Below, in pieces: positions 7,790 through 62,483 of a stretch of 64,000 bases of DNA. The stretch covers positions 496,001 through 560,000 of the forward strand of contig OZ038452.1 of the NCBI GenBank assembly GCA_964036195.1. Direction: 5' to 3'. The stretch comes from Sphaerolaimus hirsutus (taxonomy: Eukaryota; Nematoda; Chromadorea; Monhysterida; Sphaerolaimidae). Positions within the stretch are counted from its first letter, which is position 1; every line of letters begins with the position of its first letter. Below the pieces are notes generated by a model. It had not been told where the DNA came from. It searched no databases and saw only the letters and a list, made by a program, of their open reading frames with translations. Made by a program: the position numbers and the translations under genes.

Positions 7790-7955
7790 GTGCCAGTCCC
7801 AAGCCCTGTAAAGTTTTGTCAAATCTCATACAAATTTGGCAAAGTATCAATTGTCATGCAAAGTTCAGAAATAAAAGCTTTTGTTTTGATTTTACAGGAC
7901 ATTTGACACTTGGGCCCAGGACTGCTGACCCAGGTGCCAGTCTCGCACTGAATAA
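7790..7955. repeat. F2 MITE, degraded right end
   Basis: Left end GTGCCAGTCCCAAGCCCTG preceded by CTG, then GTAAAG and CAAATCTCATA blocks. The right side decays into a GACCCAGGTGCCAGTCTCGC terminus. Confidence 0.6.
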
Positions 7956-7971
7956 AAGCAATAAAATAAAA

Positions 7972-8598
7972 ATAACTCCCCGGGGGACTTATTTGAGGAT
8001 ATACAGTATCTATACCAGTGGCAGCACAGTTATCTAGGTATATGTATACTTTTGACACTTAGAATGACATTTGACATTTGACATTTAACTTTTATTTCTT
8101 GTTGTTTGTTTTTATTTTGCACAAAAGCATTGAAAAACATGTCATGGACTATTTACAAGCAAAATTAGCCTTGACACCACATTTTTGCAAACAATGTTAT
8201 GCCCTTACGTTTGCGCAAAATAATGACATTCGTAATTAGATGTAATTTACATCATGGAGTAAATACGTCAGCGTATGTTAAGGTTGTCAAAATAGGCGGA
8301 ACTGTGCATATCACTTTAGATATATAGCTGTCTGACTGTTTTCTCTCTGTTTCCATTCTACACCTTGAAAAAGCACTCCTGTATATTGAGCCCCCCAACC
8401 TCCCCCCAATTTGAGCTATGTATTTATCCCCCCCGGAGGAGCGATTTACTATCTTGTTGAAGCCCCGAAGGGGCCAAATTCAGTGGCTGCCCAGTAATCT
8501 ATATGTTTACTTTTGACACTTTACATGACATTTTACAAGGAATTTGGTTTTTTACAGCTCTTTTACAAGGTCTGGGACTGGCACCTGGGCTAGCTTTT
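7972..8598. repeat. Tandem duplication, right copy
   Basis: Second copy of 7,120-7,760, about 850 bases downstream and in the same orientation. Beyond 8,598 the two diverge at once. Confidence 0.85.
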
Positions 8599-19600: not shown

Positions 19601-22600
19601 ACCACCAATGGTAAAGTGTATGTGAAATTGCGTGCTTGCGCAGTTTTTTTTAAATGTAATTTTTTTAGAGAAAAAAACCTTTGAAAAACTGTGGCCAACC
19701 CTTAATCGCAACGTTCTGGTCAAGCATCCTTTTCAATTGCAAGAAACTGCCCGCTTTTCAAATCCATCATCAATCTCAGAATCGCCAGCTAGAGGATGAT
19801 TTGGAATCGGAACAGAGCGCTCGCGTATCAGCCGCGAACGGCCGCGAGGAGCTCGACAACGAGGTGCGGGATTTGAAAGGAAAATTCGACGTGGCCGCCA
19901 GGTCCTGGGATGAAATGTCGGCTCAGTTGAAGCGACAGTCGGTAAGGTGGGCACACGTTGGGCACGTGTTTGCATCCGGCGCATTGTTGTGCATTTGGGC
20001 CCACACACGCTACTTGCCATCGACACCAAATGTCAACTGGTTCCATTCTCAATTCAAAGCTTGCGTTTGAACGTGGTTCGTCGACTCGTCAGCAAGCTTT
20101 GAATCGGGATCGCCACCAGTTGACATTTGGTGTCGATGTCAACTAGCGTGTGTGGGGATTTTGACCGGTGGTTGCGTTTTTCTGTTCGGTGTAGGTAATT
20201 GAACCGGCGACTCGCTCTGCCGCCCGCCCGGTGATGCAATTAACATTGCGCCATGGTTCCGCCGCTCGATATGACCGTTGGCTCTTGCGAGCGATTGCAC
20301 TTTTTAAATTGGAGCATGAAAACATATTTTTAATAATCGAAATCCAAAAATGAAATTTTGAGGTAAGCAAACAATTTCACGTCTAAACACGTCGGATGAA
20401 CCCTGTACCGGCGCCCTAGACCCGGTGTCCATTTTTTTTTACCCGGTGTCCATGTAGGCCCGGTGCCCATGTAATCTCCCGTACATGGGCACCGGGTGTG
20501 GTGCGTCCATGAGCACCGGGCGACGGTGCTGAGTTGTTAAAAGTACCAAACTTTTTTCAATGTATATATGTAAACATGTATTATTTTACTCATCCCCTGA
20601 GTACAGAAAACGCAAAGTAAATTTATTACTTTTACTCATCAATAAATGTGAGTAAAATACCTTTTCCTCCCTGAAAATGTAAAATGACAAGTTACATCCA
20701 CATTTCATCTAAAACCACTTCCACTAACCCACTAATTTCTTTGTTTGAAATTTTTTTATAAAAAATGTCTCATCCAATATTTTTTCCACTATCTCTTCCA
20801 TTACCCCCTTATCGAACCTACCCTCGCTGCAAACTTCAGCTGACCGAATTGGCCGCGCTGCGGGAACAGGTGGACGGGCAGACTGCGGCCAGACTCACAG
20901 CAGAGGCGGAAAGGGACCAGTGCCTGGAGCAGTTGACGACTAAAAACGCACAGGTGAGGCTGACATGTTGTGCTCGCGCACACAAGTTGACAATTGAGGC
21001 CTCTACTTCTAAAAGTCGACAAGTCCACAAAATGCGATTTTGAGTAAATCGCATTTTAAGTTTCCGATCCAATTCCAGGCCCGTGGTGCGTGTCCAATTT
21101 GGCTCTCTCATGCTTTCCATTAAGTTCCATATGTTGACAATAAAGTGGCAAATTTTCAGCCCCTGCTCTCAGGCTTTATGTGAAAAATGGGGTGTCCCTA
21201 ATTTCCATTCGGTCAGAGGAAAATGGACTTGTCAACTTCTTGCACTAGAGAACATTTTTGTTCCCGGTGAAGGCGACTCTGCCTTATGGGCAATTTATGG
21301 ACTTGTCGACTTTTAGAAGTAGCTGTCCATGATGGACTTATCACATTTCTTGCTATTTTTTCCTATAAAAAACGAAGACGACGGGTGGACTTGTCGACTT
21401 TTAGCCCGAAACTAAGTGGACTTGTCGACTTCTTGCCAGAAATTTTCGCATTTTTCCCAAAAAATGTCAAAAATTTGGCACTTTGCCATATGGGCAATTG
21501 AGGTCCAAAAATTTATGGAAAATGATAAAAAAAATGTGCGAAAGTACCCCCAGATGATGTTTCCGGGCCTAACTCCAAATTTTCAATTATGTGACTTGTC
21601 GACTTTTAGAAGTAGACACCTCAATTGGAATTTCCAAAACTGTTAAATCTTTTTCGTATTTACACACTTGCCACAATGAATCATTTCAGTTGACTTTTCT
21701 CTCACTTACCAATTATGTCTTGACTCTGGTGAGGTACATGTGCAGGCACTGTAAAGTGCCCTGCAAAATGTAAAATGTCGGGTAGAATTCACTGAAATGA
21801 TAAATGCCGTGACGTAAAATGCTCTGAAATGAAAAATATCATGTAAAATGCCCTGCAAAATGTCAGATGTCACTTAAAATGCCATGCAAGGCGCTTGGCA
21901 GCGTTTTTCTGTGGCCCGCGCTATTTTTTGTGCCCTTGATGGTCCCTAGTGGTAGACCAACATGCAATTCTGTAAAGTGGGCAAGTGACGAGAAAAGTGC
22001 TAAGTGGTGTGTAAAGTTGTAAATTTAAATTCAAAAATACCATATTTTTATAATAGAACTTGGCTGCAAACTTCAGCTGACCGAATTGGCCGCGCTGCGG
22101 GAACAGGTGGACATGCAGACTGCGGCCAGACTCAAAGCAGAGGCGGAAAGGGACCAGTGCCTGGAGCAGTTGACCGGTAGAGATGCACAGGTGAGGCTGA
22201 CATGTCGTGCTCGTGCACACAAGTTGACATTGAAAGTTCCAGAACTGTAGAATCTGTTTCGTACACACTTGCCATTATGAATTTTTTATAGGTCGACAGG
22301 TTTTATCGAAGGCGCTTTTTTTGCGCCCTTGGTGATTGGTTCCATTTTCCTTGCGCTTTGCTGTCCCTAGTTGTAAACCAACATGCAATTCTGTAAAGTG
22401 GGCAAGTGCTGAAAACGTGAAGCAACTAAAAAGTGCTAAGTGGTGTGTAAAATTGTGCATTTTAATTCAAAAATACCATGTTTCTCTAATAGAAGAGCGC
22501 CGTTCTATTTTTTCGTCAACTTTATTGCCTACCGCTGGCGCTAGTTCCTAGGGCCGCGCTTGTTTTTAAAAAGCGCTTTTTTGCTGTTTTTCAAAAAATA

Positions 22601-25600
22601 TCAAGATACCTCTAATTCGAAGATTGGCAGTATGCTCTCGAGTGGTCAATCTATGAATCTCCCCTTTTCCTCCAACCCCTTCCCCGTTTACAGGGAGGGT
22701 GCACTATTACGCACATAAACACATCATGCACATACGCCCATCCAGAGTCGTTAACGGGCGTGCACTGATACGCACACGTGCCCGATACGCACATATGCCC
22801 GTTTTTTTCACTTGTCACTTTTTTAAGTGATTTTCAGATATGAGTAAAGTGAAAAAAAGTTGCGCAATGACATTAGTAAACTTTTTCACTTTACTCATAT
22901 CTGAAAATCACTTGAAAATGTGTCAAATGAAAAACAGTGAAAAATGGCTATTTTTCACTGTTTTTTTTCCACTTGACACATTTTCAAGTGATTTTCAGAT
23001 ATGAGTGAAGTGAAAAAAGTTCACTAATGTCATTGCACAACTTTTTTTCACTTTACTCATATCTGAAAATCACTTGAAAAAGTGTCAAGTGAAAAAAACG
23101 GGCATATGTGCGTATCGGGCACGTGTGCGTATCAGGGCTGCCCCGTGTAAGGTATTATAAAAATACCTAGGAAACTGTAAAAAAAGTGTAAGTGTAAAAA
23201 TTTTAGATCTATTTATTTATCATTTTCATGCATTATTTCACATTTTACAGCCTTTTATGAAACATTTCAGACTGTAACAAATACTGTAGTGGTATGAAGT
23301 TCCAGGGACGTATCCAGGATTTTTGAGCGGGGGGGGCTGCTTGTTTACAGAGGCCGGCGAGGGGGGGGGGCTCAGCCCCCCCCCCCTAAAATTTTAGCTA
23401 CATAGTGGCAGAATGGCGCCATGGCGCTGGCGCCATTAGTAAGCGCCATGCCATGGCGCTGGCGCCATTAGTAGGCGCCACGCCATGGCGTCATTGGCGT
23501 TGGCGCCAACGCCATGGAACGCTGTATACATATGTAAATATACATACAAAACAGCAAAAAGCACAACATTGTGTGTAATTAGGACGATTTGCGGCCACAT
23601 GGGGCAAATCTGATGATAATACCTTATGTCTGGTGAAGAATGCGCGCTAGCGCGCAAAAATTTTTACACTGACGTTGGAAAAGTCGCATTTTCCGGTCAC
23701 TTTCTGGTCTCGCCCCGGGAAGGGGGGGGGGGTTGCAGCCCCCCCCCGCCCCCCCCTGGATACGGCCCTGTGAAGTTCCTAATAATGGGAGTTTTTCAGT
23801 GTTGATATTTTACTGATTAAGCAATGCGATACACTGTTTTAATGCAAAAATGAACATGCAGCAAATGTCAATGCAAAAGTTGACTTCATGTCCAGCTGGT
23901 GAATTTCCATTGATCTTGTCCTTTTTACAAAAGAATGATGAAACTGTAGAATACCATGAGTACTGATCAAAGGTTGTAGATCAAAGGCAAGTTTGTACAT
24001 TTGCCATATTTTCTACATTCAATGCATGTTTTGTACATGACCCTATTTTATGCTTTCTCAAAAGCATAAAACAGGGCCATCTGAAAGAAAAAAATACACT
24101 TTCTGTACCCGGGTATTTTGCCCAGGAAAGTGTAAAAAAGTGTACGGGTATTTTATGAAAGTGTAAGTGTAAGTGTAAATATAAATACCCATTTACCCGG
24201 GTATTTCGGGTAAGTGTAAATACACTTTCGCAACTCTGCGCCCATCACACACACACGCAACTGGAGCTGTGTGCGTGATGGGCGTATGTGCGTAATATGC
24301 ATATGTGCGTGTTGAGCTTGTGACCGGGTACACCCAACAATACCCCCTGCATATTTCCTTTGGGGGGGGGGTGATTGTGAGGGGGGATATTTCTAGGAGG
24401 GCTTATTATTTCGCCAGAAATTTTTTGAACTTCCACCACTGATTTGCTTTTTGCTTTTGTCATTAATGTTCTCTTTACACTTAATTTGGAGCCCACGCGT
24501 TCGTTATGCTGGCAGCAAATGCAAAGGTGTAGGAAACAATATGCCAATCCTTTTAGTTGTATTCTGTCTGCCCCACCCAGTGCTGTGCACACACCCATTA
24601 CCCTCCACTTATCCCCTGCCCGTCACGCACATATGCCTGGTACGCACATAAACCCGTCACGCACATACGCCCATCATGCACACAGCTCCAGTTGTGTGCG
24701 TGACGGGTTTATCATGTGCGTAATGGGCAGGAGTCTCATGGATTTTGGCCCTCGCGGGGGCTGGATAGATAGCAAATCGCTCCTCCGGAGGGATAGATAG
24801 CTGGAAAATTTTTCTGGGGGGGCTGGCGGGGGCACAATATATAGGCACAATATACTTTTTCAAGGTTAAGAAGGCATAAAGGGGAAAAAATCGCTAATAA
24901 TCAGTTAAAAGTAGCCAAAAGTAGGTATAAAATGGCTAAAAATAGGTATATAACCATGTATATAGCCGGAAAGCACGATTTTGAAGGTTAAAAACTATAA
25001 AATGGTGCGAACATTAGTGATTTTGAGCGGAAATTGGGGCAAAATTTCTCAAAAACCACTCCAGATAGATAGATAGCTGAGCGATTTGGGGGGGGGGTCT
25101 TTTGGGGTAGTAGCCAAAAATTTTGCCTCGGGATAGATAGATAGATGAGCGGCCTCCGGGATAGATAGATAGCTGGCCGATTTGGGGGGGGCAGCCCCCC
25201 CCCCCAGCCCCCCCCCCCTAGGAGACCCCTGGTAATGGGCGTATGTGCGTGATGGGTTCATGTGCGTAAGAGGCCTGACCCGTTTACAGGAGCTCCGCGA
25301 GTGCGAAACCCGTCTGGTCGACTCGCAGAAGAAGGTCGACCAGTTGACGCAGTCGCTCGAGGATACTGAGCGGCGGCGCAGCCAGCTGGCACTGGAAAAC
25401 GACGAGCTGGTGCAGAGCAAGCGCGACCAGGGCAGGAACGTGCTCCAGCTGGAGGGCTGCAGGCGCGCCTTGCAGCACAATGTGGCCCAGCTCGAGGACC
25501 GCTTGAAGCAAACTCGGGTGAGAAGCTTTTTCCATGCATTTTTGGGCCTTCAATTTGATTGGTTGAATATTTACAGATGCAAATATATAATGTTGATTTG

Positions 25601-28600
25601 CATATAAATTGATTTCCATGTGTGTAATTGTGCAGCCACACCACAGCATGAATAGGGGTGTATGGGAAATATATTTGATTGGGCGACCTGTGGCAAAATG
25701 CATGGGGAGCACATGCGTATACCTATGCACTGGGAACAAGTTACATCCACATTTCATCTGAACCCACTTCCACTAAACCACTAATTCTTGATTTGAAAAT
25801 TTTTAATAAAAATGTCCCATCCAACATTTTTTCCACTATCTCTTCCATTACCCCCTTATCGAACCTACCCTCGCTGCAAACTTCAGCTGACCGAATTGGC
25901 CGCGCTGCGGGAACAGGTGGACGGGCAGACTGCGGCCAGACTCACAGCAGAGGCGGAAAGGGACCAGTGCCTGGAGCAGTTGACGACTAAAAACGCACAG
26001 GTGAGGCTGACATGTTGTGCTCGCGCACACAAGTTGACAATTGAGGCCTCTACTTCTAAAAGTCGACAAGTCCACAAAATGCGATTTTGAGTAAATCGCA
26101 TTTTAAGTTTCCGATCCAATTCCAGGCCCGTGGTGCGTGTTCAATTTGGCTCTCTCATGCTTTCCATTAAGTTCCATATGTTGACAATAAAGTGGCAAAT
26201 TTTCAGCCCCTGCTCTCAGGCTTTATGTGAAAAATGGGGTGTCCATAAATTTCTATTCGGTCAGAGGAAAATGGACTTGTCAACTTCTTGCACTAGAGAA
26301 CATTTTTGTTACCGGTGAAGGCGACTCTGCCTTATGGGCAATTTATGGACTTGTCGACTTTTAGAAGTAGCTGTCCATGGTGGACTTATCACATTTCTTG
26401 CTATTTTTTCCTATAAAAAACGAAGACGACGGGTGGACTTGTTGACTTTTAGCCCGAAACTAAGTGGACTTGTCGACTTCTTGCCAGAAATTTTCGCATT
26501 TTTCCCAAAAAATGTCAAAAATTTGGCACTTTGCCATATGGGCAATTGAGGTCCAAAAATTTATGGAAAATGATAAAAAAAATGTGCGAAAGTACCCCCA
26601 GATGATGTTTCCGGGCCTAACTCCAAATTTTCAATTATGTGACTTGTCGACTTTTAGAAGTAGACACCTCAATTGGAATTTCCAAAACTGTTAAATCTTT
26701 TTCGTATTTACACACTTGCCACAATGAATCATTTCAGTTGACTTTTCTCTTACTTACCAATTATGTCTTGACTCTGGTGAGGTACATGTGCAGGCACTGT
26801 AAAGTGCCCTGCAAAATGTAAAATGTCGGGTAGAATTCACTGAAATGATAAATGCCGTGACGTAAAATGCTCTGAAATGAAAAATATCATGTAAAATGCC
26901 CTGCAAAATGTCAGATGTAAAATGCCCTGTAATGCGCTTGATAGCGTTTTTCTGTGGCCCGCGCTATTTTTTGTGCCCTTGATGGTCCCTAGTGGTAGAC
27001 CAACATGTAATTCTGTAAAGTGGGCAAGTGACGAGAAAAGTGCTGAGTGGTGTGTAAAGTTGTAAATTTAAATTCAAAAATACCATATTTTTATAAAAGA
27101 ACTTGGCTGCAAACTTCAGCTGACCGAATTGGCCGCGCTGCGGGAACAGGTAGACATGCAGACTGCGGCCAGACTCAAAGCAGAGGCGGAAAGGGACCAG
27201 TGCCTGGAGCAGTTGACCGGTAGAGATGCACAGGTGAGGCTGACATGTCGTGCTCGTGCACACCAGTTGACATTGAAAGTTCCAGAACTGTAGAATCTGT
27301 TTCGTACACACTTGCCATTATGAATCATTTTTTATCGAAGTCGACGGTATTTTTTATAGTTGACAAACGACCCAATACGGTAAACTCAAATGTTAAAAAA
27401 AGAGATTTATTGGATTTGGTAAATTTCGGTTGGCAACGAGTCTGTGTATAGCCAATACCTAGATGTGATTCCTGGCCTAAATAGCTGGATGATTTTTCCT
27501 GTAATATTCCGTTTGGTATTTGCCTTGCTATACTCCAGCAACATTACACCTTACCATGAAATCTACCATATCCCATCTGAATAAAAGAACAAACATAACA
27601 ATTTTTCATCATATTTATCAAATTGCTTTGATAAATATGATGAAATTTTTTTTATGTTTGTTCTTTTATTCAGATGGGATATGGTAAATGTCATTGTAAG
27701 GTGTGATATTGCTGGATGATACGGGCGCAAGTGGACAAGTGACTAAGAAAGAGGTCAAGTTAAGTGACCGGTAAACGTATGTATCAGTGACAAACAGGTC
27801 TGTGCCTGTCGTTTGGCATGTAAACCGTTTGGCATCTAGACAACGGATCAGGGATTTCCAAGGTTTTTATCCTCGCGATAGCTTCATAGATAGCAAATCT
27901 GAAAAACATAGCTGAAAATTATATTGTGGGATCGCTGGGGCTAAAATATATATGATATACCCTAAATCCTCGAATAAGACCCCAGGGGAGTTATTTTTTC
28001 CTCAGACGTTTTGGAGGGGGGAGTTATTCAAGGGGGGGAGTTTTTCGAGGGGGGAGTTATTTTTACCTCAGAAAACTTCGACTTTATTCATTGCATGGAT
28101 GTAGTCTGTAGCTCATTTAATTCATGTATTTAACTGTCCAACAACAACAAAAAGAGTGTATACATTGCATACACATCATGTATTTGCTTCCGCTGCTGTA
28201 GGCTCAATTTTTTTTTGTATTTTTGTATTGTATTGTTTTCATCCAAAGGGGGGAGTTATTCATGAGGGGGGAGTTATTCGAGGGGGGAGTTATTTTTTCC
28301 TCACCTCGCCAACAGGGGGGAGTTATTCGAGGGGGGGTCTTATTCGAGGATTTGCGGTATATGATAAAATTGACAAAATTGTGCTTAATTTAGCGATTTT
28401 TGGTGAAAATCGGGAAAAAGTGCTAAAAGTGTGCTCCACAGAGATACCTAGATAGTTGAGTGATTGTGGGGGTATCAGGGGATAGTAGCCTCGGGATAGC
28501 TAGCTAGCTGAGCAGCTGCCTCCCCCGTGGGACCCCCGAACGGGTCTATAGATGCCAAGCGGGTTAGATGCCAAGCAAGCCTACGCCGTGACAAACATCT

Positions 28601-31600: not shown

Positions 31601-33475
31601 CAAAAATACCATTACGTTTTGTTACGTTTTCCTGACCGAAATACCCGGGTACTTGGGAAAACGTAAAAATTCGATATTTAATAGTTTCTTAGTGGCCGCG
31701 CCCTCGGACGGAACTGCATATGCCCATAAATTCTCTACCGATTATGATGCTTGAGCACTTAAAAGGATCAGAATGATGTGGCGATCGCTTTAGTGCAGCG
31801 ATTAGAATGATTACAAACAATACAATACCTCAAATATTAAATACAGTCTAATATATAGCCACCATTGTTTACTGACTGGAGTTGCCTTTGAAATTTGGTA
31901 AAAGGATCCATTTGGTATATGGAAACATTTGAGCGAGTTATTCATCAGATTGAATTACAAGAAGGTGTAACTTTTGCTCAATTTTGACGTTTATATCATC
32001 ATTGTTTGTGTTAGATTATCATTCGTTATAGTTGTCTGACTCGATGTATTTCATTATGGTGAGTATGTAGTGCTAAAAACATAAAAATATTGTATGGAAA
32101 TCAGCTATTGACCCATATAAAGCTGAAAATAATGGTATTTTCCAAAGAAAAATGATAAATACTACACATAAAATTTTTAAGTTTACGTTTTTTTTAACGT
32201 ATTCCTTGGTATTTTAAAAATACCTTACATTTTAGTAATTATACTTTTGATTTGGAAAAGGTATTTACGTTTACGTTTTCCAAAAATACCAGTATTTGCA
32301 CAACTCTGCTGGAGGGTCAAAATCTAGAATACCCCTGACATGCACAGCGGGTAAACATGCACAGTTATACATAATGTTTCCATGGGACATTGCTTTGAAT
32401 CGTTCTCATCCGCTCGCAGAAGACTCCGAGAAGGCTCCGCCCACATTACGCGTGTGCGGATTGCAACTTTGCGACACATCGAAAATCTTACTACGAAGAT
32501 CACCGGTGCAAGCACACCGGGGAACGGCCTCACAAGTGCGACCTGTGCTGCGAAGCGTTTTTTCAACGCGCTCATTTGAAGTCGCATCTCCAGACCCATT
32601 TTGGTCAGTTTTTCTGTCACGTTTGTCATAGCTTTGAACTCTCGCGCGGGTCCATTTTGGGCGTCCTAGTTAGTGCTGTAAAAACGCCATGGCGCTTATG
32701 GCGCTTGGCGCTAAATTTCCATTGGCGCGTTGCACTGCCAGAAGCGCCGTGTCGCTTTTGGCGCTTCGGCTTTGGCGTTGATAACGACACCAAATGTCAA
32801 CTGGTTCCCGTCCCAAATCAAAGCTTGCTGACGAGTAACACTACGCATTATTGTGTACACATACTAGCAACTTGGTAAATACCTCGCATGTACGTCAATA
32901 TATTTTTTCAAAATTACAGCTTCATTTACAACATGGTTCGACACTTTTGCATTTGACTGACCCTCGTCAGCAAGCTTTGAATTGGGATGGGAACCAGTTG
33001 ACATTGGGAGTCGTTGTCCTGGTGTGCGTAGGGCTTTTGGTGCCAAACTCCTGGCGCTTTTTACACACCTAGTCCTACTTTTTTTCAAAATAAGATTTCG
33101 GAAGGTGGAAAGGCGAGAGAAATTTAGCTGCCAGAAAATGGAAACGTTAACAAATTTTTAGCTGAAAAATCGTTATTTTAGAAGGAAAAATGCAGAGTCG
33201 CTTACAAGCAACGAATGTTGCTCAAAATTGCTGAAAACTTGCTCCACATAAATACGTAAATAGATACTGTCAGGTTTAGGTGGACGAAGCAATATTGTTC
33301 ATTTTTTAAATATTTTATGTTGTATTTCATTCAATTTTACAGTTTCTGATCATTTTGTATTTTCTCAATTCATTTTGCAGGCGGGCGGAGTTTTCCATGT
33401 TCATGCGGCCGCGTGTTCAGATACAAAAGGAGCAGGTATGAGCACCAGAAAGCGAAGAAATGTGAAATAAACTAG
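10690..33475 (+). CDS. Coiled-coil / C2H2 zinc-finger protein, 19 exons, 5' end outside window or unseen
   Basis: Exons: 10690-10867, 12154-12357, 13401-13453, 14310-14429, 15410-15521, 16122-16337, 17439-17528, 19780-19941, 20840-20953, 22077-22190, 25290-25517, 25887-26000, 27120-27233, 28724-28843, 28939-29029, 29830-29900, 30510-30728, 32420-32603, 33381-33475. All junction phases agree, giving an open frame of 865 residues. Residues 1 to about 600 are rich in E, K, Q, R, A and L with heptad spacing and almost no proline, so a long coiled coil. The next 240 or so are acidic, proline-rich and then basic (PPGKKAKRVAKVPQ). The C terminus has three zinc fingers. I recognise no specific orthologue; the coil is generic (myosin-tail or golgin-like). 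Two adjacent genes, coil and zinc finger, would be the main alternative, but shared phase 0 junctions and one poly(A) signal at the end favour one gene. The initiator methionine is not identified. Confidence 0.7.
10889..11831. mobile_element. hAT-type F5 MITE with intact target duplication
   Basis: Ends CAGGGGTCTTCTAG / CCTATTCCTACCCCTG, flanked by a perfect 8-bp direct repeat CCCCCTGC (10,881-10,888 and 11,832-11,839). It lies 21 bases after the donor of the exon ending at 10,867. Its left part carries a 77-bp tandem repeat. Confidence 0.85.
10924..11160. repeat. 77-bp tandem repeat, three units
   Basis: Each unit starts GATAGATAGCAAATC and includes GCTCCTACGGAGGGATAGAT. Units begin at 10,924, 11,001 and 11,078, with a partial fourth at 11,155. 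Single-copy versions occur in other F5 elements, so the array expanded inside this copy. Confidence 0.85.
12440..13400. other. Intron DNA: A/T-run MITE and old repeats
   Basis: From 12,440 a TAGGGATGGCC-end MITE remnant runs to about 12,730. It is followed by two diverged copies of the TCAAAGCTAATTCATGAA repeat (about 12.85-13.05 and 13.14-13.34 kb). No exon until 13,401. Confidence 0.5.
13466..14125. repeat. F5 fragment followed by F2 fragment
   Basis: F5 modules (CAACTGTCTATCTATCTCGG, GGAGGAACGATTTGATA) reach about 13,975. An F2 left end (GGGGGCAGTCCCAGACCCTG) follows directly at 13,979 and decays by about 14,125. Confidence 0.6.
14564..14709. mobile_element. Short MITE with TAGGGTTGGGACGATAT ends
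   Basis: A 146-bp element whose ends TAGGGTTGGGACGATAT / ATATCGTCCCAACCCTA are perfect inverted repeats, with ATATCGAATATCG repeats inside. Flanks GCTGCAAG and ACAGCAAG are an imperfect 8-bp duplication. hAT-like. Confidence 0.75.
14830..15130. repeat. F5 fragment and unassigned intron DNA
   Basis: Contains CATCGCTCCTCCCCATAGAT and ATAGATAGCTGAATATTTTC modules from F5. The remainder up to the exon at 15,410 shows nothing supportable. Confidence 0.4.
16122..16337 (+). CDS. Coiled-coil exon, copy 1 (72 codons)
   Basis: Phase 0 at both ends. Starts CETRLVDSQKKVDQL directly after TTTACAG and ends before GTGAGA. Identical base for base over these 216 coding bases to 25,302-25,517. That copy has four extra codons (E-L-R-E) at its start, missing here through a 12-base deletion bounded by AG on each side. 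Confidence 0.85.
16389..17196. mobile_element. hAT-type F5 MITE with intact target duplication
   Basis: Ends CAGGGGTAGG / GAAGACCCCTG. The 8-bp direct repeat GGTTGATT is at 16,381-16,388 and 17,394-17,401; the right copy is displaced by an F2 element inserted exactly at the terminus. The equivalent intron position after exon copy 2 (about 25,560) is an empty site. Confidence 0.85.
16660..16965. mobile_element. hAT-type GGACGTAGCC MITE, nested
   Basis: Ends CAGGGACGTAGCC / GGTTACGTCCTTG, flanked by a perfect 8-bp repeat CGTCTAAC (16,652-16,659 and 16,966-16,973). Inserted inside the F5 element. Interior has G and C homopolymers and a GCGCC block. Confidence 0.85.
17197..17390. mobile_element. 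F2 MITE inserted at the F5 terminus
   Basis: Ends GGAGCAGTCCCAAGCC / GGCTTGGGACTGCCAC, flanked by CTG on both sides (17,194-17,196 and 17,391-17,393). Removing it joins CCCCTG to GGTTGATT, exactly the F5 end plus its 8-bp duplication, so the 3-bp CTG duplication is well supported. Confidence 0.85.
17439..17528 (+). CDS. Coiled-coil exon, 30 codons
   Basis: AATCACAG|TTGGAAAAG to AAAAAG|GTGAGT, phase 0 both ends. Encodes LEKGRLEINLLAARHEVSRA and ten further residues with heptad leucines. This exon and the next (19,780-19,941) have no counterpart in the second duplicated block. Confidence 0.8.
17560..19700. other. Intron DNA, repeats only
   Basis: Contains a GCGCC array (17,765-17,870), A/T-run MITE remnants (18,145-18,330 and 19,170-19,710, the latter starting near TAGGGATGAAAAAAACG), and at least three diverged copies of a TCAAATGCATTCAAAGCGGA repeat. 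No supported exon. Confidence 0.55.
19780..19941 (+). CDS. Coiled-coil exon, 54 codons
   Basis: CAATCTCAG|AATCGC to CAGTCG|GTAAGG, phase 0 both ends. Begins NRQLEDDLESEQSARVSAAN; the repeated D, E, L and R spacing resembles myosin-type coils. Confidence 0.85.
19997..20157. repeat. Fold-back MITE, family F1
   Basis: GGGCCCACACACGCTAC at the left, CTAGCGTGTGTGGGG at the right, with inverted CAACTGGTTCC and TTCAAAGCTTGC blocks. It starts 55 bases after the donor of the preceding exon. Confidence 0.8.
20405..20530. repeat. CCGGTGCCCATG inverted-repeat cluster
   Basis: Several direct and inverted copies of ACCCGGTGTCCATG and CATGGGCACCGGGT. The same style of motif (CCCGGCGCGCATGTAG) is found at 14,480-14,760, 29,085-29,170, 30,040-30,110 and 31,205-31,240. 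Confidence 0.55.
20840..20953 (+). CDS. 38-codon coiled-coil exon, copy A1
   Basis: AAACTTCAG|CTGACC to CGCACAG|GTGAGG, phase 0 both ends. Encodes LTELAALREQVDGQTAARLT and 18 more residues ending in T-T-K-N-A-Q. Protein identical to copy B1 (25,887-26,000). Confidence 0.85.
20996..21622. repeat. GTCGACTTTTAGAAG fold-back repeat
   Basis: Left end TTGAGGCCTCTACTTCTAAA, right end TTTTAGAAGTAGACACCTCAA, with several internal GGACTTGTCGACTT copies. Shared with 26,043-26,670 through the segmental duplication and with 9,682-10,585 as an independent copy. Confidence 0.75.
22077..22190 (+). CDS. 38-codon coiled-coil exon, copy A2
   Basis: Same splice frame as A1. Differs from it at G-to-M, T-to-K and the end T-G-R-D-A-Q, so A1 and A2 are an older tandem pair than blocks A and B. 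Identical protein to B2 (27,120-27,233). Confidence 0.85.
22615..22694. repeat. Detached upstream intron flank of exon copy 2
   Basis: Matches 16,040-16,121, the intron end before exon copy 1 (GAAGATTGGCAGTATGCTCT and following), including the acceptor stretch CCCGTTTACAG. The exon expected next is found 2.6 kb further on, after a transposon insertion. Confidence 0.8.
22756..23144. repeat. Fold-back repeat with GATACGCACACGTGCCCG arms
   Basis: Long inverted arms (GCACTGATACGCACACGTGC and complement) enclose further inverted copies of CTTTACTCATATCTGAAAAT. A relative is at 40,890-41,125. Strong hairpin potential. Confidence 0.75.
23303..23770. mobile_element. hAT-type GGACGTATCC MITE, nested
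   Basis: Ends CAGGGACGTATCC / GGATACGGCCCTG, flanked by a perfect 8-bp repeat TGAAGTTC (23,295-23,302 and 23,771-23,778). Interior has GCGCCATGGCG blocks and G/C homopolymers. Confidence 0.85.
24728..25231. mobile_element. hAT-type F5 MITE, nested
   Basis: Ends CAGGAGTCTCATGG / CCTAGGAGACCCCTG, flanked by a perfect 8-bp repeat GTAATGGG (24,720-24,727 and 25,232-25,239). Contains the family's GGATAGATAGCTGG modules. Confidence 0.85.
25290..25517 (+). CDS. Coiled-coil exon, copy 2 (76 codons)
   Basis: GTTTACAG|GAGCTC to ACTCGG|GTGAGA, phase 0 both ends. Starts ELRECETRLVDSQKK; all bases from the C-E-T-R codons on are identical to copy 1. The acceptor used here is the right-hand copy of a transposon target duplication. 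Confidence 0.85.
25887..26000 (+). CDS. 38-codon coiled-coil exon, copy B1
   Basis: Coding bases identical to A1. Same acceptor (CTTCAG|CTGACC) and donor (CACAG|GTGAGG). Confidence 0.85.
27120..27233 (+). CDS. 38-codon coiled-coil exon, copy B2
   Basis: Protein identical to A2. One silent change (GTG to GTA valine codon). Confidence 0.85.
27530..27722. repeat. Fold-back MITE, TTTATCAAAGCAATTTGATA core
   Basis: Near-perfect hairpin: arms contain AATCTACCATATCCCATCTG and the complement, around a palindromic centre. Copies at 40,447-40,583 (partial) and 52,965-53,140; a shortened arm at 45,515-45,545. Confidence 0.8.
27957..28366. mobile_element. F3 MITE, CCTCGAATAAG subtype
   Basis: Ends ACCCTAAATCCTCGAATAAG / CTTATTCGAGGATTTGCGGT with tandem GGGGGGAGTTATTCGAGG modules. 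This subtype replaces the CGAAATAC module by CGAATAAG. Confidence 0.75.
28724..28843 (+). CDS. Exon at coil/linker boundary, 40 codons
   Basis: TCTTCCGCAG|ATTCAA to CACACAG|GTGAGT, phase 0 both ends. Begins IQQIRDRKNPAPKKMAAAES; the coil pattern breaks at the prolines. Confidence 0.8.
28939..29029 (+). CDS. Acidic linker exon ending in a GC donor
   Basis: Starts CLADVSQQNAEPEPDIEPSD after ATTCCGCAG and ends at AGAG|GCAAGT, a strong match to the GC-AG class of donors. No GT donor in the right phase is nearby; the phase-1 end fits the 2-base start of the exon at 29,830. Confidence 0.7.
29830..29900 (+). CDS. Short linker exon
   Basis: TTTCGCAG|AC-GAT to CAGCAG|GTTCGC. Reads (D)DADCAGAAPPTAVVVVDCV then P-P-Q-Q. 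Phase 1 in, phase 0 out. Confidence 0.65.
30510..30728 (+). CDS. Basic, low-complexity linker exon, 73 codons
   Basis: AATTGCAG|TGCGAT to CCTCAG|GTATAC, phase 0. Early part acidic (CDEEPPVDHNEPMVQLSSTP), middle glycine/alanine-rich and very GC-rich, end PPGKKAKRVAKVPQ, a plausible nuclear localisation signal ahead of the zinc fingers. Confidence 0.75.
31090..32335. repeat. F5 MITE split by an ACGTTTACGT (F6) insertion
   Basis: F5 modules (TCCTCCAGAGGAGCGACTAG, GCTATCTATCCAACCCCCTG) run to about 31,530, then F6 DNA with many TTTACGTTTACG motifs (31,535-32,305), then an F5-like end (GGAGGGTCAAAATCTAGAAT). Confidence 0.55.
32420..32603 (+). CDS. C2H2 zinc-finger exon, two fingers
   Basis: CGCTCGCAG|AAGACT to CATTTTG|GTCAGT, phase 0 in, phase 1 out. 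Two perfect C-x2-C-x12-H-x3-H fingers: the first starts YACADCNFATHRKSYYEDH, the second CDLCCEAFFQRAHLKSH, joined by the canonical linker H-T-G-E-R-P-H-K. Such fingers bind DNA, suggesting a nuclear role for the gene product. Confidence 0.85.
32676..33065. repeat. GCGCC array plus diverged F1 arms
   Basis: AGTGCTGTAAAAACGCCATGG starts a GCGCC array. F1 arms (ATGTCAACTGGTTCCCGTCC at 32,796 and its complement at about 32,985) enclose unrelated DNA. Confidence 0.55.
33381..33475 (+). CDS. Terminal exon: C2HC zinc finger and stop
   Basis: CATTTTGCAG|GC-GGG, joined in phase 1, reads GRSFPCSCGRVFRYKRSRYE then H-Q-K-A-K-K-C-E-I-N and TAG at 33,473-33,475. The finger is C-x1-C-x12-H-x5-C, a variant spacing. 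AGCAG|GTATGA inside it looks like a donor, but only reading through it completes the finger. Confidence 0.8.
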
Positions 33476-35174: not shown

Positions 35175-38100
35175 TCATTTGAAAGGCTGCAGAGAAGCCG
35201 CCTGGTCATCTGTCAGCTGGCCGTCGGCTAGTTGCCGCATGATCCGTTCTCGCCGCCGCTGCAGTTCGCGCTGCCGCTTGCTTCTGCGCGACAACTGTTC
35301 ATCGCCGCGTTCAGCCATGGTCACCTGGGTGCAGTCCCAGACCCTGTAAAGTGTCAAGTAAAGTGTCAAACGTCATGTTTTGAATCAAAAAGAAAAGGTT
35401 TTGTTACTACTGAGCTTTGCATGACAATTGAAACTTTACTTCACTTTTGTCATGACAATTGACACTGTATAACAATTTACATGACATTTGACACTGTATG
35501 ACAATTTACATGACATTTGACACTGTATGACAATTTACATGACATTTGTCATGACAATTGACACTGCATGACAATTTACATGACATTTGACACTGTATGA
35601 AAATTTACATGACATTTGACACTGTATGACAATTTACACGACATTTGACACTGTGTGAAAATTTACTTGACATTTGACACTGTATGACAATTTACACGAC
35701 ATTTGACACTGTGTGACAATTTACATGACATTTGACACTTTACTTTACACTTTACAAGGTGTGGGATTGGCACCTGAGCGCGTGCCATTAGCTCCTCGTC
35801 TTGCAGCACCCTGACCAGCCCGTAGATGGCCTGTAGTGTGCTATCGTTTACTGAAGATGTGCAGATTAGGGATGTTTTCACTGTTTTAAGGACACAGGCA
35901 CCAAAACCTTTTTTTTCCAAAACAGCAGCTTGAATTATCAGTACTTTTCCGCTTTCACACGACACTTGACTTTTTAGCTGTCCTCGCAGATGTCAAGTCG
36001 CTCACACCCGTAGAATGTGGCAACGCACGGTGTTTTTGTGGTACGAGCGCGCGAAGCGACTGTGGAAGCCTTCGATGTGGCCGTTCGTGTAACAGTGCGC
36101 CGGCCGGCCGTGCAGGTTGCCCAGCCGCAGCCTGTCCTTGTCGTTGATCCACCTGTCCATCCAGGGGGCAGTCCCAAGCCCTGTAAAGTGCAAAGTAAAG
36201 TGTCAATTGTAAAGTCGAAGTAAAGTGTCAATGGTCATGCAGAGTGTTGAATGAAAAGTAAAGTGTCAATTGTGTATCCTAATCTTATTTTTTGTATCCT
36301 AATCTTATGTGGAAATATAAGATTTGTATACAAAAACAACATTTGGATACAACAACATATGATTAGGATACACAATTGACACTTTACTATATTTACATTT
36401 GACATTTTGCATGACAATTGAAACTTTACTTTACATTTGACATTTTGCATGACAATTGACACTTTACTTTACATTAGACTTTACATTTGAAACTTTACAG
36501 TGCTCGGGACTGCCACCAGTACTGCTGCAGGGGCGCCAGCCGCATGCGCGCGTCCGCGTCCAGCCGCCGCACCCGGTCGCCCATGAAGCTCTGGTGGAAC
36601 CAACGGCGCATGCTCTCCACCGGCAGGAACGTCGACGCGAGCAGCAGCTGCACCTGCACCTTGTTTTCTGCCGCGCGCGCCCACAGCTGCATTTTTTGTT
36701 ATACTCCAGTCACTTTACACCCCGCACGCATGGAAGCTTCCCGCTGGAAGCGTGCCAACAATTTTTTACGCGTGCGACATCCATAAAATGTTGAAATAGT
36801 CAATCAACTCTGGTAAATATAACGCCATACTTTAACTTATTCACAACAATGATTTTTTTCATCTTTTTACAAAAATCGTATGCTTTATCATCATTGGCAC
36901 ACTTCCAACGTGGAAATAAATGAGTGCGAAGGCAGAGTATCTAGATAGGGGATGGTCCGGCCGTAAAGTATACCCGGCCGTAAAGTAGAGGGTGCTACTT
37001 TCGGCCGTCATCATTACGGCAGAGTTGTTTAAAGTACTGAACTTTTTTCAAAGTAAACGTAAACGTAAAGTATTTTATTTTTAGTCACACCTGAATACAG
37101 AAAACGTAAAGTAAAAATTTTCTACTTTTACGCTGTTTAAAAGGTGAGTTAACGTAAATATCTGTAAATACTCGTTTTCTGTACTCGCGTACTTTCAAAA
37201 AGTACGCGAGTAACTGAGTACCGGTATTTTTTTCAGGAGGAAACGTAAACGTATTTACGCAGCACTCGAGTATCCGTATTTATCGAGTAAACGTAAATAC
37301 GTTTGTACAACTATGCCTTACGGCCGGATTTACTTTACGGCCGGGTTTACTTTACGGCCAAGTTCTCGCCGAGTATCTAGTCTGCCGAGTATAACACTAT
37401 AATTTGTCAACGGGTTCCCCTGAATATACCCTCAAATGACTCTACCCTGGTTCCAATGAGCAAATTTGGAAATGCAAGTGAACTCCATGATTCAGTCATC
37501 TGAAGGCATTTTTTTCCAATCTCATGGTGGAATATTCTTACATTTCAGTTAGGTGACTTTTATCACCCTACTTGGTAGAAAAGACCCTTTAAAACTTGTC
37601 CGGAAAAAACCCTACCAGATGCGTTTATAGTAGGTTATGCATATGATATGCAGATTGCGATCTTCCATGGATATGTTCCTATCTAGGTATGTGTCTTTAC
37701 CAACAATGCGAATCAAACATTTGAGTAAAAGCGCAGCGAAAACACACAAACACCGACCGCCAGGGCTGGTTCCCCGAGAACAAACTTCCACGTCTCGTTG
37801 ACTTTGTGGAAATGGCAGCCGTACAGAAGTGCGTCCGGCAGCGCGGCGCGCATCGCAGCTATCAGCGCCGGGTCGTAGTCGAGCGTGATGGACTTTGGCT
37901 GGAGCGACAGGTGCAGCCGCGCGCACTTGTGCCGCACCAACTGCACCACGTGCTCGTAGGCCGCCCGCGTGTCGTCGTGCTCGCGCAGCAGGCAAAACAC
38001 GGCTGGGATGAGCTTGTCCCCGATGAACACCTGTATTGCGGGTCCTTTGCTTGCCCCTGTTGATTATACATTAGGATACCTATTTTGAAACTCTGTTACT

Positions 38101-39764
38101 ATTTAGCTATTATTCAGAAGATTTAGGGAATTTATTGAAGCAGCCGTTACATGGCCTCCTTGTGACAACACTGTTTTTCCATTGTGAAATGAAATTTTGT
38201 GGTGACAACGCACATTTTTGAGAAATTTTGCATGTGACGATAACTCGCCATTGCTAAGCCCAAGAGTGACAACTGACAATTGACTTATGAACTGACAACT
38301 GAAATACATCTGAAATGCCTATATCTCTTGAATGACAGCACAAATTATTTGCGAAATTGGCATGTGCGTAGACTGTACTAGTAACTATACTTCACTGTTC
38401 CTTCAGATGTGGAAATTTATTATGGGGTCACGGATCTTTTTCACTAAAATTTTGTTGTCACTTGGAGACTGTGTAAATGTTGCTTCAATAAATTTTTTAA
38501 TTTGCCGCAGAGAAAACTGCAGCTAACTGGACATCCATTTTTTCACGGTTTTACATAAAAAGTACACTATTGGACTGAAAGCACCTAAGCACTACCTGGA
38601 TGGTGAACAGCTTCTTGAAATGTCTGGGCATTTTTTTAACTGTGCTATCAACCGCCCACTGTGCATTTCTTTGCGCCAGCTGCTCCAGGCCAAAGTCACT
38701 GGCAAAGATGAGCCGTTCGCACGTGTCATCATCTGCCCACTGCTGGTGCAGCAGGAAGCGCTTGGCGGTGCCGCCCTCGCCCGGCGTCGTGTTGCACAGC
38801 TGCCGCGCCAGTTGCCGCCTGCCGCTGGGCACATCGTTCTCGTCGCTCGCACCAGCCTCGACCCCGTCTACAGCTTGCCCATCGTCGCTGCCGCTGTCGC
38901 GCCGCACGTGTCGCCTGCTTTGCCGCTGCAAGTGTCGCCACCGCTCCCGGTACAGCGCCGCGTGGTTGCGATAGAAGTGGCCCAGTTTGCGCAGATGTGT
39001 CGGCTGCTCCACGCACTTGACAACTGCGTTTTAATTATTGATTTGGGTAAGTCATTTACATTTATGTGTTTACATTTACAAACTGTATTTTCACAACAGT
39101 GGTACATTATTTACCACAAATCCTTCAAAAAGACCCTTGAAAACCCCCCTGTTTGGCTGATGCACCCCCTAAAATGCAACTCCCAGTTCACCTACAAACA
39201 GGCTTGGCAAAAACCGCATTTAATACGCATGCACCTGCTTTCTTGTATATGGCTCCAATTGCCTCATTTGTGGTGCCGGCGGCTCTTTTCATTTCTGCTC
39301 GGTGGTGCATCACGGCCACTTTCGCCGGGTCGGGCACGCAGCCGGCCGCATGCGCCGTTATCACCTCCATGTGCTCTCCGTCGAGGTCTGTTTTCACGTA
39401 ACCTGTGCAGGTGCAATGATCTCATTTTGGGTGTACAATGGTGCCCCATGGTAAATATTAATATCTGGTGTTTTTGCCCTTATGGGAGATATTTTTTCCA
39501 ACCAGCCAAGCAGGCTGCATTTTGTGCAAATGTAAATATCCACTAAGGAAAGCAGTTTCTGCCCATTTTCAGCAATTGCACGTTCTTTTCAATGACAACG
39601 GGAACAATCCATGGGAACTCACCGCCGCAGTTTTGCCGCCTGCAGCGCCACTTGCACGTGATCTGGCCGATCCGGCCGCGCCTGTACGAGTGGCCGTCAC
39701 GGCGCAGCGCCACTTTGCCTCTGGTCGTGCGCGACAGGCTGCTCGACGTCGGCGCGCCTTCCAT
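35175..39764 (-). CDS. FLYWCH-MULE transposase-derived protein, 8 exons, 510 aa
   Basis: Exons, in order on the minus strand: 39764-39623, 39402-39235, 39023-38596, 38030-37758, 36686-36517, 36152-36008, 35830-35774, 35324-35175. All phases agree and the frame is open from ATG to TGA; an in-frame stop lies just upstream of the ATG. Residues 15-65 are a FLYWCH zinc finger (RGKVALRRDGHSYRR, then W39, C41, C46, H65). Residues 220-425 are a Mutator-like (MULE) DDE domain: D229 in WAVDSTVKKMP, D297 in SITLDYDPALIAA, the C-H-F-H motif at 318-321, and E421 in NGHIEGFHSRF. The C terminus is basic and helical (RRSKRQRELQRRRERIM). The intact triad allows either an active element or a host gene. Seven introns, no visible terminal inverted repeats and a nearby poly(A) signal favour a host gene or an old immobile copy. 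Two introns are F2 elements. Confidence 0.85.
35328..35773. mobile_element. F2 MITE forming intron 7 of the MULE-derived gene
   Basis: Flanked by CTG (35,325-35,327 and 35,774-35,776). On the minus strand the intron is 35,773-35,325: it opens with the element's own first bases (CAG|GTGCCAATCCC) and closes on the duplicated target CAG (GACTGCACCCAG|GTGACC). Intron equals element plus one target copy. The inside is expanded by a 29-bp minisatellite. Confidence 0.85.
35461..35735. repeat. 29-bp minisatellite inside an F2 element
   Basis: About nine copies of GACACTGTATGACAATTTAC plus ATGACATTT, with scattered changes. Other F2 copies have the same words once or twice, so this is a local expansion. 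Confidence 0.85.
36165..36516. mobile_element. F2 MITE forming intron 5 of the MULE-derived gene
   Basis: Ends GGGGCAGTCCCAAGCCC / GCTCGGGACTGCCAC, flanked by CAG on both sides (36,162-36,164 and 36,517-36,519). On the minus strand the donor is the element's terminal GTGGCAG; the first usable in-frame acceptor (GATGGACAG) lies 9 bases past the target duplicate. The interior carries an extra inverted repeat around TGTATCCTAATCTTAT. Confidence 0.85.
36955..37375. repeat. CGGCCGTAAAGTA MITE with nested F6 repeat
   Basis: Inverted ends CCGGCCGTAAAGTA / TACTTTACGGCC. Inside (about 37,020-37,320) is F6, recognised by GAGTTGTTTAAAGTACTGAA and AACGTAAACGTAAAGTATTT. Lies in intron 4 of the minus-strand gene. 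Confidence 0.65.
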
Positions 39765-44008: not shown

Positions 44009-47000
44009 GCGGCGCGGTGGGCAGGCGGCTGACCAGGAGCGACTTGGCGCCGAAGCGCATCCGCGCGCAGCTGCTGCAGCGCCGCCGCGACGAGCAGGCG
44101 GTCGAGGACGCGCAGAAAGGTCTGCTCATGTTCCGCTGCCAGGTGCGTTTTCGCCCCCGCTCTCGACTAGTGATCACTGATTGCGCGTTGACATCGCCAA
44201 AGTTATGGCCAAAGCTAAAGGTGCCGTTTCGCTCTTGGCCAAGTGCCAAAACTAAGTGCCGACACTTTTTACGTCACTTTCACGTCATTGTCATGTAATT
44301 TGAGGGTAACATTTTGGGGGTCCACCATACCATGTGCCAGTCCCACACCCTGTAAAGTGTCATGTCGATTGTCAAATGTCATGTAAAGTGTCAATCACAA
44401 TATTTAAAATACCGTATTTCCTCAAAATACCCCTGGGGGGTTTATTGTTTCAGAGTGAGAATTTTGAGGGGGGGTTAAACGAGGGGGGGGTATTTCGAGG
44501 GGGGGAGGTTTATTATTTCGCCAGAAATTTTTTGAAAACCAAGTACTAAATTGTCGTCTGAAACGTACGCAGACGTCGAAAATGCAACAAAAATCGCCAG
44601 TTATAAGACTCTAAGCACTTGTATAAGTGTGTAGATGTATAATCACTGTTCTCACATAACAGAGTCATCGTTTTTAACGTGTGTTTTGCATTACCCAGAT
44701 GACAAACCGCAGCCTTTGTCATTTACGTTCTCTATACACTGAATTTGGGGGGGGGGTATTTCGAGGGGGGGTTTATAAGTTCATAGTGTCCATTTTGAGG
44801 GGGGGTATTTCGAGGGGGGGGGGTATTTCGAGGGGGGGGGGGATTTCGAGGAAATACGGTAATTGTTTTTTACTGAACTTTTGACGTTATATATGGCATT
44901 TGACAAATTTGCATGATACTTTGCAAAGTGCGCGACTGCCAGAAGACCACGTGTTAATTCCACTAATACCTAGATAAGTGACAAAGAAATGGTAAGCACA
45001 GTTTAAACTGCTCAGTCAAGTGACACGTAAACTTATATGTGACAAGCATTTTCATTAAAAGTTCACTTGTCACTTACGTTTACTTATCACTTCTCCAATG
45101 ATAAATATTCTACCAATTACAATGTTACTTACCACTGATGGATTTTATTGTCACTTGTCACTTCTTCACAAAATGAGAAGTGAGAAGTGAAATGGCAAAT
45201 GCGAAGTAAAAGCGCAAAGGCGAAGTGAAACGGCAAGTGAATTGGCAAGTGAAATGGCAAAAGCGAAGTGAAATTACTTTTTATTATTATGTTTTTACTC
45301 GCTTTTGCCAATTCACTTGCCGTTTGACTTCGCATTTGCGCTTTTATGTCGCCTTTGCCATTTCGCTTCTCACTTCTCATTTTGCGGAACTGGCACCAGA
45401 TGTGAGCGTGACTGCAAACTCTTTTCATGTCACTGCTGTTATTGTAAAAATTACTTAATATTAGAGTAATCTTGTAATGACACTTTCCTCCTGATCAAGT
45501 GACTGAACACTTTACAACGAAATCTACCATATCCCATCTGAATGATAACTCAAAAATTCAATTTATTCTTCTCGTCACATTACTTTGATCTCACTATGGG
45601 TGATTTTTGTGCATAAATACGTATTAAAGTGATTTTACTTATCAAAATGTGGCAACATTCCTTGTATAGCTTTCAGTCCAATGAGTATACCTACATTGAT
45701 GCTGAAAATACGCAGATTTTTATGTGCAATTCTATTTTACAGGTGAAAGGCCGCGGTGTGATGACAACGCGGCCATATGCAAAGAAGGAAATCGTCACAG
45801 TGTACGCTGGTAAAAAACTGAGCTATGAGGAGGGCATCAGGCGGGATGAAGAGTTGCACAAGAACCCGGAGCAGGATTCCTACCTGTTCTACTACGGGAA
45901 GAACTTTTGGTTGGTTTGTGCTTACTTCCAACCTCATATCACAATGCCAGGTTACATGCATAGTTGTTAAACGTAGTTACGTTTACTCGATAATTACGGA
46001 TACTCGAGTACTGCATAAATACGTTTACGTTTCCTTGCGAAAACAATACCGGTACTCACTTACACGCGTACTTTTTGAAAGTACGCGAGTACAGAAAACG
46101 TATTTCTAGATGACAGAACATGTCATTTTGCCAAACAGAAAGTGACAAACATACGACATTTTCATAAGAAATACTTAGTAGGAGAGAAAAACACATCTTT
46201 TTGTATATCAGAGTAAAAATTCGAAAAATACCGACTTTTTTCAGAAAAATACTAACTTTTACATTTTCTGTGAGAAAAATACCCGTTTGTTTATGTTTGT
46301 TCCAGAAAAAATTTGTTTTCACGTTTTCTCTGAAAAAAAAGCATTTTACTCACGTTTTACGCAGTGTAAAAGTATTTTAAAAATACTTTACGTTTTCTGT
46401 ACTCAGCGGTGAGTAAAAGAAAAATACTTTACGTTTACGTTTACTTTTAAAAAAGTTCAGTACTTTTAACAACTCTGGTTACATGCACAATCGTAAATAG
46501 CAAGTTGGACGCTGTAACAGTGCAACTTTATGGTATTTTTGATATTGAATGGTGAATACCGTATTTCCTCGAAATACCCCTCCCCCCTAGAAATACCCAC
46601 CGTCTCGAAATACCCCCCCCCCTAGCAATACCCACCGTCCCGAAATTCCCCCCTCCTCCTCAAAATGGCCACTATGAATTTATTAGCCCCCCCCCCCCAC
46701 GAAATACCCCCCAAATTGAGTGTACAGAGAACGTACATGACAAAACTGCGGTTTGTAATTCTGGCAATGCACAACACACGTTAAAAACGATGAATTGTTA
46801 CAGTTGAACAGTGTTACATACTTATAAAGTCAGTAGACTCATATATAGCGGTTATTGTTGCATTTTTCTACGTCTGCGTACATTTCAGACGACAATTGAG
46901 TACTGGAATTTTAAAAAATTTCTGGCGAAATAATAAGCCCCCCTCGAAATACCCCCTCCCCCTGATTTAACCCCCCTCAAAATTCACACTCTGAAACAAT

Positions 47001-62271: not shown

Positions 62272-62483
62272 GTGAGTGCCAGCTTGGGGTGGCTATGTCA
62301 TTCGAAGGGATCCACCACTCACTCTGGTGGGGAGAAATTTGTGTCGCATCGCGTGTCCTATAGTAGTATATTTATTCATGGTTACGCCGCCTTATAGTTC
62401 CGTTTCATCTGAAATGATCTCAAACGAGCTGCCAAACAGAACCACATTAGCCCATAGTTGTCAAGTTCACTCGAAAAATATGT

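Follow-up and report, generated by a model that had tools for sequence, protein, structure and literature searches.

A gene on the minus strand of the window (the whole stretch of 64,000 nucleotides from Sphaerolaimus hirsutus that was analyzed) is interrupted by an inverted-repeat element, termed F2, in such a way that element and intron seem to coincide. The locus raises the question whether the element is the intron in its entirety and from where the two splice sites would be derived. The earlier note had read positions 35325..35773 as an F2 element plus one target copy, with a donor GT from the inverted repeat and an acceptor AG from a duplicated CAG, and had proposed F2 as an introner family. 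As set out below, intron 7 of this gene is most likely a CAG-class F2 introner copy with GT-AG borders, the removal of which would restore the exon to the base. The mechanism of the note fits intron 7 and is incomplete for the family; the copies ending with TG are the part most worth attention.

The host gene

The gene model comprises eight exons on the minus strand: exon 1 (39623..39764, also backed by Pfam), exon 2 (39235..39402), exon 3 (38596..39023), exon 4 (37758..38030), exon 5 (36517..36686), exon 6 (36008..36161, with a codon score for one frame only), exon 7 (35774..35830) and exon 8 (35175..35324, also backed by its codon score and ending with the stop codon). With the seven introns taken out, the model yields a product of 513 amino acids without internal stop. 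Pfam matches of this product to the MULE transposase domain (24.5 bits) and to the FLYWCH finger (22.5 bits) lie just below the curated cut-offs of 27.6 and 23.6, respectively. Judged by eye, the three acidic catalytic positions of a MULE transposase seem to be present (WAVDST, LDYDPA, IEGFH). With a threshold of E 0.001, the 7,997 scored candidates contained no protein relative. The possibility that the gene is itself a mobile element was rejected because long inverted repeats flanking it were absent from the approximately 2 kb searched on either side, and for the same reason the gene may be domesticated.

Elsewhere in the window, exons of an UNC80-like gene (Pfam UNC80_N) were noticed on the plus strand at 57995-58402, 61070-61381 and 62051-62272, as well as a C2H2 zinc-finger-like exon at 32399-32875 (+), whose Pfam match is weak and below the cut-off. 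Two pairs of near-identical blocks (16120-16386 and 25300-25566, 99.3%; 20687-22304 and 25736-27352, 97.4%) lie in or near exons weakly matching a myosin tail.

Two F2 copies as candidate introns 7 and 5

The F2 copy at candidate intron 7 occupies 35328..35773 (minus strand, 446 bp), is bounded by terminal inverted repeats and has a hairpin z of -7.8. One CAG copy (35774..35776) is the last codon of exon 7, the other (35325..35327) would provide the acceptor AG, and the candidate donor GTGCCA starts at 35773. On the minus strand, exon 7 ends with GCACGCGCTCAG, the element begins with GTGCCAATCCC and ends with GGGACTGCACC, and the second CAG leads into exon 8, which starts with GTGACCATGG. Thus, the element and one CAG copy sit exactly between two in-frame coding exons, and the minus strand reads as the earlier note had described it. 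This copy exceeds the approximately 190 bp of the common F2 copies because of a tandem repeat at 35435..35739 (unit of 29/58 bp, joined from two overlapping rows).

The note had also pointed out that the frame is continuous after removal of the element, which holds for the 513 residues of the product, but such continuity is automatic for any target-duplicating insertion and is therefore by itself no proof of splicing. Better evidence is provided by the codon scores of exons 6 and 8, both of which score as coding only in the frames given by exact F2 removal. For exon 8, the joined frame reached +9.6 bits, compared to -16.6 and -34.0 in the other two.

The second F2 element (36165..36516, minus strand, 352 bp, hairpin z of -16.2) forms candidate intron 5 and likewise has its GT end first. 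It is placed between two CTG triplets of the sense strand, so that the 3′ target copy (36162..36164) lacks an AG and exact excision would correspond to a GT-TG intron. Among the AGs listed, the earliest that would stay in frame with the terminal donor is situated 9 nt inside the following exon; its use would remove three residues and result in a product of 510 amino acids.

Both elements contain, inside the inverted repeat, a TTTACAG. These two motifs are the top-scoring acceptors of the whole gene (6.1 and 4.2), although the scores of this weight matrix are rough. In intron 7, the motif is located 19 nt upstream of the CAG acceptor and scores 4.2 against -0.1. It is conceivable that splicing takes place at this inner AG and that the C-terminal tail of the protein is lost or altered. 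However, this would cause a frameshift with a stop after 474 amino acids, while exon 8 scores as coding in the other frame. In addition, the inner AG is predicted to lie within a stem, and the same exact continuity recurs in a Na/K-ATPase gene (see below). Splicing at the inner AG is thus judged very unlikely, and the CAG copy adjoining the element is retained as the probable acceptor of intron 7.

Ends and target sites of the F2 family

The F2-end pattern matched 2,883 times in the 348.5-Mb genome, while its reversed control gave no match. The elements have GTGCC or GTGGC at one end and mostly GGGGC at the other. The target rule was examined in 274 kb (the window and 21 stretches of 10 kb) with 13 control triplet pairs. 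Twenty complete copies were flanked by identical CWG triplets on both sides, compared to 0 to 3 for each control pair, and at a looser setting the values were 25 versus 0 to 4. Structure and target duplication can be read directly from the copies.

The accessible part of the work on NuwaI elements, which belong to the PIF/Harbinger-related PHIS superfamily, describes CWG duplications, inverted repeats usually starting with GGG and animal hosts (PMC4482050). F2 fits this description in its CWG duplications and, as exons of Na/K-ATPase, cadherin, UNC80 and a myosin tail give the genome an animal-like character, in its host; of its two ends, the one that is mostly GGGGC would fit as well. It differs from NuwaI in being non-autonomous and in having one GTG end opposite an end that is mostly GGGGC. 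From its sequence, F2 is very probably a non-autonomous, CWG-duplicating MITE of the NuwaI kind that acts as an introner in coding exons. F2 ends were not detected in viral contigs, a collection from which records of F2's own genome may be left out, and Rfam and tRNA scans of the DNA found nothing.

Some related structures were noticed in passing. A direct repeat of 97% identity (7121-7623 and 7973-8482) adjoins F2 ends, and nesting or duplication may account for the copy at 7790-8584. At 45160-45396, another kind of hairpin element is present, with 80-nt arms and an end like GTGCCAGTTCC. The end CTTGCGGAACCAGCAC recurs beside GG ends of the genome listing and may belong to a second MITE family with related ends.

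Exonic copies in the genome

A genome-wide search was performed with a pattern that requires G or C at each third position upstream of a CAG, followed by the GT end of F2. It returned 369 places with coding-like flanks (reversed control: 1), and the same pattern with CTG returned 338 (control: 0), not all of which are exonic. The 369 include repeated places with identical flanks and some non-coding ones (e.g. L056 with a codon score of 3.2). Several CAG and CTG places share identical flanks tens of kb apart, as if they were duplicated or belonged to uncollapsed haplotypes, and both counts are inflated to that extent. A pattern for the 3′ side, a CAG copy followed by a codon-like flank, occurred 298 times (control: 0).

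In a first sample, 4 of 22 complete F2 copies lay in coding sequence, namely the two copies of the MULE gene, L022 and L024. The latter was called exonic because of leucine-rich repeats, although the codon score slightly favored the other strand (34.3 to 30.2). Since 10% of 811 random CWG sites exceeded 28.4 with the same codon score, a preference for exons does not follow from this fraction. Twenty stretches with 21 CAG places were also examined and contained 19 complete copies; at L056 and L067, no element with identical copies was found. In 16 of the 19, the strand with the best codon score was the one in which the GT end comes first, an orientation that is biased by the choice of places by their GT end.

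To assess continuity, ten joined peptides were submitted to Pfam, and in four of them a domain crosses the junction. In a Na/K-ATPase gene, Cation_ATPase_C runs through both junctions of two CAG-class copies lying 900 bp apart (L058:290-467 and L058:1148-1383). With the first copy removed, the alignment to the solved mammalian enzyme is ungapped for 143 residues and passes through LAYEQ/AESDIMKR (the slash indicates the junction). The Oscp1 domain passes through a CTG/CTG copy (L072) with 42 residues on 42 profile positions, and the Xan_ur_permease domain through another (L077) with 76 residues on 75 positions. Cadherin, DnaJ and EGF-type peptides appear continuous by eye, their Pfam matches stopping short of the junction; for two of the ten peptides, Pfam gave no match. 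Continuity of conserved genes across F2 copies is in this way directly seen.

The orientation of the copies was analyzed with 93, 93 and 94 of about 100 listed flanks for the CAG, CTG and GG-end sets, from which 1, 7 and 21 resembling other inverted-repeat ends and four duplicates were dropped. The CAG set revealed no stop on the sense strand versus eight on the antisense strand (n=92), the CTG set one versus 11 (n=86) and the GG-end set two versus one (n=69). The GT-end lists hence lean to sense, while the sense codon score exceeded the antisense score in only 60-62% of their listed flanks. The GG-end pattern itself, in which sense and antisense readings are mixed, occurred 356 times in the genome (control: 22), compared to 707 occurrences of the GT end. 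By eye, 12 listed GG-end places are the opposite end of copies already contained in the GT lists. Four GG-end places were inspected: L082 has its GT end first, L083 came without its other end, and L080 and L081 could be assigned to neither strand, as was the case for L033 and L066. Among the few GG-end places examined, no copy with the GG end first was confirmed by homology.

A donor GT supplied by the inverted repeat, as the note had stated, agrees with the exonic copies whose strand was decided by homology. As far as can be judged from the genome sequence, F2 ends coincide with intron ends, the coding sequence is restored on removal, and similar sequences apparently occur at many intron positions, 28 copies being taken as exonic. 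Copies lying exactly inside coding exons of unrelated conserved genes of the same genome support the assignment of F2 to the introners.

CTG-class copies and the 3′ triplet

Exonic copies are not confined to sense CAG. This is indicated by the 338 CTG places next to 369 CAG places and by the copies in L072 and L077. Based on coding-like flanks, not all of which are exonic, CTG-target copies are about as frequent in exons as CAG ones. The earlier derivation of the acceptor AG from a duplicated CAG therefore holds for the CAG class, including intron 7, but misses a large part of the exonic copies and already the neighboring intron 5.

Ten CTG places were examined, of which six are CTG/CTG, two CTG/CAG and one CTG/CAG after an extra C, while one is without recognizable end. 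No element with identical copies was found in L073, L076, L078 and L079, the last three of which were later seen to have unequal copies. Altogether, ten clear CTG-class exonic copies are available, with CTG as 3′ copy in six and CAG in four (L076, L078 with the one extra C, L079 and L082). In L082:154-342, CTG stands before and CAG after the element. The joined peptides of L076 and L079, which we take to be cyclin-Y-like and receptor-like, respectively, look continuous too. In all seven CTG/CTG copies whose sequence was inspected by eye, an AG precedes the end of the target copy by 19 nt.

Two readings of these copies have to be weighed. On the one hand, most of them may have inserted recently, be disruptive or be polymorphic, and working introns would be restricted to copies with an AG at the 3′ end, by a CAG target or by change of CTG to CAG. 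The exonic-like copies, 21 of which are CAG/CAG and four CTG-to-CAG with no CAG-to-CTG, are in line with this. However, unequal triplets also occur in 9 of 38 copies outside exons (six CTG/CAG, three CAG/CTG), and the differences between exonic and other copies are not significant (Fisher p 0.064 and 1.0). For this test, eight exonic CTG/CTG copies were counted, among them one double count (L059, the other end of a CAG copy) and L081 with its strand assigned neither way; copies with codon scores of 15 to 25 were left out of the tally, and the 3′ triplet of L043 and L067 is neither CAG nor CTG. Moreover, should most of the 338 places be exonic, they would impose a heavy load. This reading is well possible, at somewhat below an even chance.

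On the other hand, the CTG copies may be spliced exactly, as GT-TG introns, with U2AF reading the AG at -19 first and the foot of the hairpin placing the CWG for the second step. The 338 CTG-class coding-like flanks and the domains that cross L072 and L077 argue for it. In human genes, according to the accessible sections of a study on TG acceptors, such acceptors always have an AG no more than 28 nt away (PMC2374985), a distance into which the AG of F2 at 19 nt falls. By analogy, they may be regarded as a hypothetical precedent for the CTG copies. However, the same sections state that TG is never the sole acceptor in human genes (PMC2374985). The CAG at the 3′ end of 4 of the 10 clear CTG-class copies also hints that AG is favored. 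In addition, CTG copies may be somewhat under-represented, since coding sequence contains more CTG than CAG: CWGG in codon phase gave 22 to 8 (a small sample, mostly MULE), and the codons of a larger sample 103 to 78. Exact GT-TG splicing is thus considered rather unlikely.

Indifference to CAG or CTG would also be accounted for if F2 copies were excised from the DNA of body cells like the IESs of ciliates. Yet the copies are present in the assembly, and the exonic copies oriented by homology (few cases, partly selected by the GT end) begin with the GT end, a feature not required for excision from DNA. We regard this as extremely improbable and return to splicing of the transcript.

Hairpin and proposed mechanism

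All 28 copies taken as exonic are predicted to form a better hairpin than 20 mononucleotide shuffles each, with z values from -3.7 to -28.9; the two window copies were folded against dinucleotide shuffles as well. In 18 of the 28, the last AG of the element is located 19 nt upstream of the target copy's end, and in 16 of these 18 it is paired with a predicted probability of at least 0.97. The CAG-class copies L052, L060 and L068 seem to lack this AG. According to the predictions, the donor GU also lies in the stem in many copies (pairing 0.29-1.00), and the pairing of the target WG ranges from 0.01 to 1.00. Because donor and target triplet are variably paired too, masking of the inner AG by itself falls short as an explanation, and the folding models bear out the masking idea only partly.

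Splicing of F2 and masking of its inner AG are what we infer from these data. F2 would insert into coding exons at CWG, and its end starting with GTG would be the source of the 5′ splice site. If the target is CAG in sense, the duplicated copy at the other end would give the AG, and GT-AG removal would restore the exon. The transcribed element is predicted to form one long hairpin; the target copy sits at the foot of this hairpin, and the stronger AG (-19) usually within the stem. Conventional GT-AG splicing at the hairpin foot would suffice for the CAG copies. Tentatively, and with rather little confidence, it may be proposed that one family makes GT-AG and GT-TG introns by hundreds, set only by which CWG strand codes, and that the hairpin foot rather than the AG marks the 3′ splice site while the AG at -19 serves first recognition.

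Relation to known systems

The maize elements Ds and dSpm resemble F2 in that an exonic transposon is spliced out with a site from the target duplication. In contrast to F2, these are single alleles, and splicing is imprecise.

Introners themselves are already known, and F2 represents a variant of them found in an animal and bound to CWG targets. In the accessible sections of Gozashti et al. 2022, introners are multi-copy DNA elements coinciding with introns, many of them with target duplications and inverted repeats; one splice site comes from the element and the other from the target, and the hosts include animals, copepods being named (PMC9860276). F2 appears to be alike in all of these features. 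Among animals and land plants, only two groups with introners, both animals, are reported in these sections, which describe no CWG target rule or TG-ending class and give 4-bp duplications for Symbiodinium and Chrysochromulina, unlike the 3-bp CWG of F2 (PMC9860276). One fungal study is listed for introners in combination with Harbinger elements. The introner elements of Amoebophrya, as far as the available text goes, share with F2 the inverted and short direct repeats, the predicted hairpins and the MITE-like character, but reside in a dinoflagellate and have highly variable splice sites (PMC7789003). An animal that breaks the GT-AG rule is Fritillaria, for which the available text names introner transposons with weak splice sites as a possible cause (PMC13326754). 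There, 95% of the introns are off-rule, whereas the other five introns of the MULE gene are GT-AG, the model having been built that way.

Introners are a leading explanation for bursts of intron gain. With F2, a putative animal introner is at hand whose copies lie in conserved genes and whose target rule is simple. This rule provides a built-in control, as the same element is found in the same kind of exon with either AG or TG at its 3′ end. F2 hence bears on the questions whether the spliceosome depends on an AG and whether the 3′ splice site can be set by a hairpin.
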